DNA of 64,000 nucleotides from Candidatus Arsenophonus lipoptenae (GTDB taxonomy: Bacteria > Pseudomonadota > Gammaproteobacteria > Enterobacterales > Enterobacteriaceae): NCBI RefSeq assembly GCF_001534665.1, contig NZ_CP013920.1:756501-820500 (forward strand), in the 5' to 3' direction. Positions 13,927 to 45,988 of this stretch are shown piece by piece. Within the stretch, counting starts at the first letter, position 1; each line of letters starts with the position of its first letter. The notes below the pieces were generated by a model. It worked only from the letters and a program-made list of their open reading frames with translations, was not told the DNA's origin and made no database searches. The position numbers were made by a program, and so were the translations under genes.

Positions 13927-14051
13927 CTTTTTCAAAAATAATCTATCTCAGAGGTTATCTTAATTTAATTACATCATTTTTATATTAAAAAAATGCTAAG
14001 TCAGGGATTTAAACCTCTTACTGGCAGTAATAAATATTCTCCAGTTATATG

Positions 14052-14077
14052 AAACCCCTATTTTCGGGGTTTTTTTA
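14052..14077 (+). terminator. Intrinsic terminator after metY
   Basis: The 7-bp stem aaacccc/ggggttt with a 7-base loop is followed at once by a run of T. It is one of the few GC-rich hairpins in the window. It lies 126 bases past metY and before the rimP relic, and would end tRNA transcripts or partly attenuate read-through into nusA-infB. Confidence 0.85.
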
Positions 14078-14150
14078 TTTACAATAAATTTAATGAGTTA
14101 TTTTTATATATATTTTATATTTAATTTTTTTTAAAAGGTTGAATTTATTT

Positions 14151-14600
14151 ATGATCAAACAAAAATTAAAATCAATTATTCCAGCTTCTATAAAAGGCTT
14201 GGGTTTTGCATTTATTGGTTTGTAATTTATACGATTACAAATTTTAACTTTACTAGTTTATATTGATCATAAATATAATATTACAATTAATAATTATATA
14301 GATGTTAGCCATCAAATTAGTGCTATATTAGATATTGAAGATTCTATTACAGTAATTTATAACCTTGAGATATCTTCACTAGGAATTGAACTTTTATTAT
14401 TTATTATTAGTGCTCATTATAAACGTTTTATTAGTAAAGAAGTTAACCTGACATTAAAAATAAAAATGCATAATTGTCATTAATGGAAAGAAATAATTAA
14501 ATTTATTGATGACAGAATAATTATGATTACTGTAGATGGTAAGAATTAAGTGTTTTTATTAAAAAACATATAAAAAGCCAATTTGGTACCCATCTTTTAA
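14151..14600 (+). pseudogene. rimP: rimP pseudogene with four in-frame TAA stops
   Basis: RimP is a 30S maturation factor of 150 residues in E. coli, encoded before nusA. Here 149 codons run in one frame from the ATG to the terminal TAA and align along the whole length: IDVSHQISAILDIEDSI and YNLEISSLG in the middle, KANLVPIF at the end. No net frameshift is needed. The frame is broken by TAA at codons 25 (14223), 111 (14481), 133 (14547) and 141 (14571). The usual SPGLDRPL motif is degraded to SSLGIELLL. It is most likely a non-functional gene within the nusA transcription unit. Confidence 0.9.
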
Positions 14601-14626
14601 TAATAAATTTTGATGAGGTAACTAGG

Positions 14627-16141
14627 ATGAATAAAGAAATTTTAGCTGTTGTAGAAGCTGTTTCTAATGAAAAATCACTTCCACGTGAAAAAATATTTGA
14701 AGTTCTTGAAACTGCACTAGCAACAGCTACTAAGAAAAAATACGAACAAGAAATTGACGTACGTGTCAATATTAATCGTAAAATAGGAGATTTTGACACT
14801 TTTCGTCGTTGGTTAGTAGTAGAAGAAGTCACGCAACCTACACGTGAAATTACTTTAGATGCTGCTAAATTTGAAAATTCATCTATTAAAATAGGTGATT
14901 ATATAGAAGATCAAATAGAATCTATTACATTTGATCGTATTACGACTCAAACTGCAAAACAGGTAATTGTTCAAAAGGTACGTGAAGCTGAAAGAGCAAT
15001 GGTAGTTGAACAATTTCGTAAGCAACAAGGTGAAATTATTACTGGTATAGTAAAAAAAGTAAATCGGGAAAATATTACATTAGATTTAGGTAATAATGCT
15101 GAAGGAATTATCTTGCGAGAAGATATGCTTCCTCGTGAAAATTTTCGAATAGGTGATCGTATTCGTGGCGTATTATATGATATACATCCTGAATCTAGGG
15201 GGGCTCAACTATTTATTACAAGATCTAAACCTGAAATGTTAATAGAATTATTTCGTATAGAAGTACCTGAAATTGGAGAAGAAATGATTGAAATTAAAGC
15301 TGCAGCCCGTGATCCAGGTTCTAGAGCAAAAATTGCAGTAAAAACTAACGATAAACGAATTGATCCAGTAGGTGCCTGTGTTGGAATGCGTGGCGCACGG
15401 GTACAAGCTGTATCAACTGAGCTTTGTGGTGAGCGTATTGATATTGTTTTATGGGATGATAATCCCGCACAATTTGTTATTAATGCTATGGCTCCAGCTG
15501 ATGTTGCTTCTATTGTAGTTGATGAAGATAAATGTACTATGGATGTTGCTGTCGAAAGTAATAATTTAGCTCAAGCAATTGGTCGTAATGGACAAAATAT
15601 CCGATTAGCATCCCAGTTACTAAAAAAACATCAAAGAGATGAAAAATGGGAATTAAATATCATGACTGCTGAAGAACTTGAAGCTAAGCATCAAGAAGAA
15701 GCACATACATCTATTAAAGCTTTCATTAAGTATTTAAATATTGATGAAGAATTTGCAGTTATTCTTGTTGAGAAAGGGTTTTCCACATTAGAAGAATTAG
15801 CTTATATACCAGTCAAGGAATTATTAAATATTACAGGACTTGATGAAACAACAATTAAAGTTTTGCGTCAAAGAGCAAAATCTGCATTAACAATATTAGA
15901 ATTAGCTAAAAAAGAGAGTATTAGAAATAATCAACCAACTGATAATTTATTAAATCTACCAGGTATGGATCATGCATTAGCCATGAGCTTAGCTTCTCGT
16001 AATATATGCACATTAGAAGATCTTGCTGATCAAGGAATTGATGATTTAAAAGAAGTTGAAGGATTAATAAGTGATAAACAAGCTGGTGAAATTATTATGG
16101 CTGCACGTAATATTTGTTGGTTTGGTAGCGATTCAAAATAA
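14627..16141 (+). CDS. nusA: Transcription elongation/termination factor NusA
   Basis: Binds RNA polymerase and nascent RNA and modulates pausing, termination and antitermination. Domains in order are the N-terminal polymerase-binding region, S1 (about 135-200), KH1 and KH2 (about 230-350), and two C-terminal acidic repeats ending in ARNICWFG. The product has 504 residues against 495 in E. coli. Most of the excess is a nine-residue stretch LKKHQRDEK (residues 332-340) replacing two residues between RLASQL and WELN in KH2. A gagg site precedes the ATG. It is followed by infB after 20 bases. Confidence 0.96.
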
Positions 16142-44416: not shown

Positions 44417-45477
44417 TTATATTTTATTATTTAAAAAAATTATTTGAACTTTTTGTTGCTTTTTTATCTTAAGATTAAAAAACATGGGTAATCTAACTAA
44501 ACGAACGGTTTCTTTAGTTGTATAACAATCATTTCCATAAAAAATACTATATTTTATACTCCAAACTTTTTATACTCTAAACTACTAAACTACTATGTCT
44601 CCCATATGGAGTATTTTATGGAGTAGTTAGGAGATAATAAAATGCTGAAATATTAACTGATTGTGTATGTTTTTATTAAACAATTTTTTTATTTAATATC
44701 TTATAATTTTAAAATATAGGCGTTATATGTGACTGATATAGTTGATAATTATAATTTGTTTATTTTAGAACTAGTGGTTTTAATTTTTGATAGTATAGTA
44801 AGTAATGTTTTATAATCTTGATTGTTAATTCTATTTGTTATATTTATCTGCTTAAGTTGCATCTATAAGTAAGCTTCTTGCAAATCTGATATTAAATATT
44901 TTCAACCAATATTTATTAATTAGGTGTATTATTAATTATTTAAAAATAAACTAATTATATTTATGTATTTTTCTTTTAAAATTTTTGCACTTTCAATAAG
45001 TAGATGATTATCGATCATAGTATCGCATCATCTTCTCCATTAGTAAAATAATTTTTTAGGTTCATTAAAACTATACAACCAGTATGTCTTATTTTTTTTA
45101 AGTAGTTTACTTTATAAGTAACATAATTTTTATGTCAAGCATCTTCAATTTTGTTTTCATCTATATTAATAGTATTATGTCTTATATCGATAAATATAAT
45201 AGTTATACATCTTAAGATAAAAATATTATCTACGTTGTAAATATAAAACTTGTCATGTTCATTTCATTATCTGGTTTTATATCAAATAAAATTATTGTTA
45301 TTTTTACAGATATTGTACAGTAAAGAGTTAGAAGAAGAACTTCTGGGTATTAAAATTTTCTATTTAACTTTTATAAAGTTGAAAAAATATATATTATCAC
45401 ATAACTTACTATTATTTATGACTTTTTATATAAATCGGTTTAGTATTTATAATTGATTGTTTATTAAATGAAATTAT
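44417..45477 (-). pseudogene. wecE: wecE (rffA) pseudogene, TDP-4-keto-6-deoxyhexose transaminase
   Basis: WecE makes TDP-Fuc4N for enterobacterial common antigen. Pieces of the 376-residue protein follow in order on the minus strand: IISFN at the start (ATG now ATA, 45477), SKLC, KILIP, LFDIKPDNEM (45280s), TINIDENKIEDA, KNYFTNGEDDA, MIDNHLLIESAKILKEK (45018-44968), YLISDLQEAYL, YNAYILKL, TTKETVRLVRLPMFFNL (44521-44471), ending with a stop at 44417. Many stops and frameshifts separate the pieces, and roughly 45 codons are deleted in the middle. It lies between wecA and yifK, as in the E. coli wec cluster. Confidence 0.88.
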
Positions 45478-45988
45478 GATATTTTTATATCAAGCAGTTT
45501 ATTTTAATTTTTATTCTAATTCATGAATAAAAATAAATAATGAATAAATAATATTATTATTACAGTGAATAATTCACTAATACTTGTTAAATAATGAAAA
45601 TATCTAATTTAATTGTTTTTATATTAATAAAATAATCATATTTTATAAAATAAAAGATTTTATTTTTACTAGTATCCAGTTTAATATACTTTTCTGAAGT
45701 AAATGTTAATTAACATATATTATAATTATTTTTAAATTAATAATATAGATATTATCTATAATAGATATATCGGAATAATATTAAAATATTTACAGTTAAA
45801 AATAATTCTTGTTTAATTAAATAATGATATAATAATATTAATGAAATTTAGTAATTTTGTTGAATATTAAATAAATGATGATATTTAATCGATGATTAAA
45901 ATAATGTAAATTTAAATTTATTTGTTTTGAAACATTTAGATTATTGATCCTAGGATTTATTTTATTATTTATATTACTACAAAAAATT
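45478..45988 (-). other. Decayed wec-cluster DNA between wecE relic and wecA
   Basis: In E. coli wzzE, wecB, wecC, rffG, rffH and wecD lie here. Only about 510 bases remain, with no intact frame. Just before the wecE relic the minus strand reads T-A, stop, Y-K, which may be the end of wecD (STAYWLYR in E. coli), but that is only a few residues. A 60-codon frame near 45838-46020 looks like chance. The other wec genes are deleted. Confidence 0.45.

Follow-up and report, generated by a model that had tools for sequence, protein, structure and literature searches.

The rimP gene of Candidatus Arsenophonus lipoptenae, a symbiont that lives in deer keds (Lipoptena cervi; PMC5027103) and whose genome is a single contig of 836,724 bp, is very probably a pseudogene in mid-decay, one that yields no protein and has been changing neutrally since a fairly recent lapse of selection. 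We analyzed the gene within a stretch of 64,000 nucleotides of that contig (the window, in whose coordinates all positions are given).

A full-length rimP frame with four in-frame stops

The rimP frame at 14151-14600 (+) has its terminal TAA at codon 150; the four further TAA codons reported in the original prediction, at codons 25, 111, 133 and 141, were read directly in this frame. With these stops written as X, the frame matched the NCBIfam RimP equivalog over residues 2-149 (140.7 bits, E 3.8e-41, a score that falls under the model's cut-off of 162 bits), exceeded the cut-off for both Pfam RimP domains (PF02576 and PF17384) and matched E. coli RimP (7afi_X) end to end (E 5.4e-42). The profile matches and the 7afi_X alignment thus bear out the predicted similarity to RimP from start to end, and a frameshift-tolerant alignment, with four stops and zero frameshifts, agrees that no net frameshift is needed. 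The gene order secG, tRNA-Leu, tRNA-Met, rimP, nusA, infB is that of genome G005, in which rimP is intact. Searches of the whole A. lipoptenae genome with each of the two RimP domains returned no second rimP, and the intact copy for which the original prediction had proposed to look was found by neither domain.

The original prediction further described decay without visible indels and a frame that had kept its length. The first description does not hold: in the alignment with other Arsenophonus one codon is inserted at ~14409-14411, and the rimP stop is followed by an additional TAA triplet. The ATG at 14151 would correspond to the third rimP codon of relatives, and the ancestral TTG start seems to have been lost. 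The near-equal length of 149 against 150 codons is correct as a count; it is a coincidence and not a kept length, because the inserted codon and the shifted start offset each other.

Constraint was assessed at hard-core columns, defined as those invariant in 86 larger-genome Enterobacterales loci and in three reduced symbionts with an intact rimP. In the window, 10 of 36 such residues are replaced in RimP, against 10/257 in NusA, 21/349 in InfB, 2/54 in TruB, 0/30 in RbfA and 2/36 in RpsO; the figure for RbfA confirms that its gene is intact, as had been stated. When the intact symbiont rimP genes were scored by leave-one-out, they gave 2/38, 6/42 and 10/46 core changes. The missense changes in the relic include radical ones within the conserved SSPGLERPLF, here SSLGIELLLF, where the SSPG-RP motif is hit. 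The GC content of its first and second codon positions (0.309 and 0.208) is also nearer to that of intergenic DNA (0.152) than is that of the window genes (0.396 and 0.314). In all, the relic retains the two-domain similarity of a functional RimP and lacks the open frame and the family-invariant residues, and it shows the homology and synteny, the disabling changes and the constraint weaker than in its neighbours that mark a pseudogene.

Both RimP domains are still recognisable and the codon-position bias of the relic is only partly gone, as would be seen if fragments or a read-through product, arising by leaky TAA codons or internal initiation, still supplied RimP activity. Such a product would have to contend with four TAA codons and with the replacement of ten core residues, including those of the SSPG-RP motif. 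Moreover, the 85-codon open stretch between the stops at codons 25 and 111 contains no ATG, GTG or TTG before codon 106, which argues against the earlier suggestion that some fragments may be made, and we consider residual activity very improbable. The gene would be recognisable because its loss is recent. Error in sequencing or assembly is an equally poor prospect. The genome comes from one published Illumina assembly of ~40x coverage (PMC5027103), but that assembly was Pilon-checked (PMC5027103), and errors would have had to produce four stops by substitution, insert a codon in frame and replace ten core residues, all inside 450 bases and beside a clean nusA, infB and rbfA. That each of the four stops is a TAA standing where relatives have Glu, Lys or Gln might instead point to TAA being read as sense in this genome, a possibility that we regard as negligible: the stops take the place of three different residues, no TAA lies inside conserved genes such as nusA and infB, and 36 of the 42 main window genes end in TAA at homologous ends; TAA is therefore not recoded. 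We accordingly retain the reading of rimP as a decaying pseudogene.

Table 1. Features of the rimP-nusA region and the wecE relic, in window coordinates
Feature	Position	Strand	Evidence or remarks
Eroded leader of rimP (RF01770), retaining first hairpin and T run but lacking AGGGUCCAGU element and second hairpin (terminator)	14023..14104	+	profile score, alignment
Presumed position of relatives' TTG start, TTA here	14145..14147	+	inferred from colinear alignment
rimP pseudogene, full length	14151..14600	+	in-frame stops; RimP profile and sequence matches, alignment
In-frame TAA, codon 25 (relatives: Glu)	14223..14225	+	frame reading, alignment
Inserted codon, in no other aligned RimP; placement within ATTATTAGT run ambiguous	~14409..14411	+	alignment
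In-frame TAA, codon 111 (relatives: Lys)	14481..14483	+	frame reading, alignment
In-frame TAA, codon 133 (relatives: Glu)	14547..14549	+	frame reading, alignment
In-frame TAA, codon 141 (most relatives: Gln)	14571..14573	+	frame reading, alignment
Predicted hairpin, 5' arm UUUGGU	14582..14587	+	folding, arm-pairing test
nusA Shine-Dalgarno GAGG, partly paired in predicted hairpin	14615..14618	+	alignment, folding
Predicted hairpin, 3' arm ACUAGG, directly 5' of nusA ATG	14621..14626	+	folding, arm-pairing test
nusA, intact	14627..16141	+	homology, core residues
wecE relic (enterobacterial common antigen transaminase), heavily decayed	44447..45564	-	13 stops, 9 frameshifts, internal deletions

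Neutral decay and the loss of rimP in relatives

The original prediction held decay by nonsense changes alone to be unusual. In a neutral simulation, intact rimP genes from three other symbionts were drifted toward 15% GC, conditioned on 9-10 core changes. At the level of damage seen in the window, ~33-83 substitutions had elapsed and 3.0-4.2 stops had arisen on average, with a probability of 0.35-0.61 for four or more; four stops are thus the neutral expectation. About 70% of simulated stops were TAA, and all four were TAA in 22-24% of cases (P ~0.23 for the observed composition). Other pseudogenes were surveyed within the window and a small neighbourhood, and besides rimP, wecE was the sole relic that could be recognised in the window; 16 pseudogenes have been counted in the genome (PMC5027103). 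The probability of finding no frameshift beside four stops was 0.12 from wecE alone and 0.21 when pooled with the rimP relic of a second Arsenophonus (G004, below), a comparison that draws on two relics and so on a small sample. No special cause is called for to explain decay by stops alone in this AT-biased genome. The suggestion that the loss may be recent fared better, since the protein is recognisable throughout and the ~33-83 neutral changes suffice. Outside the window but in the same genome, at L155:12384-13541, the N-terminal half of cyaA (class I adenylate cyclase; ~390 of 862 residues) is open and well conserved and is followed by ~1 kb of AT-rich sequence; its catalytic half may have been retained alone.

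Among 295 sampled genomes of the family to which A. lipoptenae belongs, rimP was undetected in 84, those listed being mainly of 0.4-1.4 Mb. In the Arsenophonus of the whitefly Aleurodicus dispersus (G004; locus L121) the gene is a relic with six stops and zero frameshifts. Only the last 20 rimP codons are recognisable upstream of nusA in G021, a relative of 1.1 Mb, and in six genomes of 0.5-0.6 Mb no recognisable rimP was found upstream of nusA. At the G021 locus (L162:7344-7903) these last codons beside nusA and the leader hairpins are all that is still well conserved and G+C-rich. Deletion of rimP in E. coli is viable, with slow and temperature-sensitive growth (PMC9032327), and loss of the gene is therefore tolerable. 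In Mollicutes, RbfA is kept while RimM and RimP occur in only a few (PMC4014445). A. lipoptenae has RimM, RbfA, Era and Rho; RsgA (YjeQ) was not found in its whole genome or in that of the Arsenophonus of the aphid Ceratovacuna japonica (G002). In G004, RsgA is broken into fragments with TAA and TAG, and five larger Arsenophonus genomes have it.

Based on these results we propose that rimP, whose role in 30S assembly is dispensable, escaped selection fairly recently in this lineage and that roughly 30-80 unselected changes, with a strong AT bias, would then have accrued in the gene. The core missense changes, the four TAA codons, the inserted codon and the loss of the old start would all be consequences of unselected change, and the absence so far of a frameshift would be ordinary chance. 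RimP protein would not be made, RimM, RbfA and Era would carry on ribosome assembly, and nusA would rely on its own conserved Shine-Dalgarno sequence. The relic is an ordinary pseudogene caught early, a clean early snapshot of how a 30S-assembly factor is lost, a loss that many of the family's reduced genomes seem to have undergone.

The rimP leader and the junction with nusA

The original prediction had also raised the possibility that the DNA is kept as a leader for nusA-infB. Upstream of the gene, the rimP leader (RF01770) scores 31.3 bits in the window, under the gathering cut-off of 47 bits and with one of the two hairpins, against 59-92 bits in other Arsenophonus, where the AGGGUCCAGU element is kept or nearly so. 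The second terminator hairpin, described for the gammaproteobacterial rimP leader (PMC2965389), is gone in the window, in L121 and in L120; its loss does not go along with the death of rimP, because L120 has an intact rimP. A sigma-70 scan gave fewer hits than in shuffled sequences. We rejected retention of the rimP body as a nusA leader, given the erosion of the leader elements and the neutral behaviour of the body; the idea may yet hold for the final ~20 bases, which are predicted to pair with the nusA initiation site.

RNAalifold found no consensus structure at the rimP-nusA junction. An arm-pairing test made afterwards set a six-base stretch within the Asn-Leu-Val codons close to the end of rimP against the six bases before the nusA ATG. 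These arms formed a mean of 5.16 of six pairs over 44 distinct sequences and at most 3.14 when slid, with a permutation P of 0.0009-0.002 from a test that was post hoc and ignores kinship among the sequences. Changes on both sides of the helix occur in several taxa, a sign of covariation in part of the family. All six pairs can form in the window, three of them G-U, and the hairpin has a predicted stability of -9.5 kcal/mol (-8.5 kcal/mol in intact Arsenophonus). The arms also persist in the other two rimP relics examined, with six Watson-Crick pairs in L121 and five of six pairs in L162, where nearly all of the remaining rimP is gone. Furthermore, synonymous diversity among 86 intact rimP genes drops over the last 20 codons to 0.47 of expected, against 0.72 elsewhere. 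It is also low at the start of rimP, and a second low patch lies at codons 37-54 (0.37-0.45 of expected in the same 86 loci, L032-L111 and the Arsenophonus loci).

Together, the pairing, the two-sided changes, the persistence in all three relics and the low synonymous diversity at the 3' end raise a possibility that we hold only tentatively: although the rimP frame is dead, selection may still preserve its final ~20 bases, which would form the 5' arm of a hairpin around the nusA Shine-Dalgarno sequence. Several results weigh the other way. Neutral change would leave the window with as much pairing in 10-15% of trials, two of the four stops fall within the last 17 rimP codons, the E. coli/Klebsiella-type group lacks the helix, the pairing does not rise above control in other families, and the lack of an RNAalifold consensus and the limits of the permutation test count against it as well. 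Were the hairpin selected, ribosomes finishing rimP in intact relatives might melt the helix, and the window might hold an uncoupled structured nusA leader, an extension that we likewise think doubtful. More broadly, we speculate, at odds that we would put on the unlikely side, that the end of rimP serves many family members as a hairpin arm coupling NusA synthesis to RimP translation, and that the arm outlives a dead rimP because nusA needs it. A selected 3' arm is compatible with neutral decay of the remainder of rimP. A search of one literature library returned no paper on rimP-nusA pairing, an absence that is no proof. The pairing is a modest, testable lead: as an apparently covarying contact that joins the rimP end to the nusA start, it offers a testable reason for the survival of a dead gene's last bases and, if true, it would tie NusA synthesis to 30S assembly.

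Relation to known systems

The relic resembles the 30S ribosome maturation factor RimP of E. coli (7afi_X) in sequence across both domains and over its whole length; unlike that gene, it cannot encode the protein, having four stops and lost core residues. The leader shares its position, first hairpin and T run with the rimP leader attenuator (Rfam RF01770; PMC2965389) and differs in its score under the cut-off and in lacking the second GGGC/GCCC terminator and the AGGGUCCAGU element. Coupling of genes by RNA unfolding is a known and reviewed analogue of the junction (PMC12548453), the likeness being a predicted hairpin between the end of an upstream gene and a downstream ribosome-binding site. 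The rimP-nusA hairpin, however, is a prediction, and coupling could not act in the window because the upstream rimP frame is broken.

The rimP relic of G004 is the same gene in the same place before nusA, with stops and no frameshift in its remaining part; it differs from that of the window in that ~200 bases of its middle are deleted and the AGGGUCCAGU leader element is still intact. With the pseudogenes of reducing insect endosymbionts the window relic shares a once-functional, dispensable gene in synteny, stops, missense changes at conserved sites and AT drift. Compared with the wecE relic, it stands at an earlier stage of this decay, still free of frameshifts.
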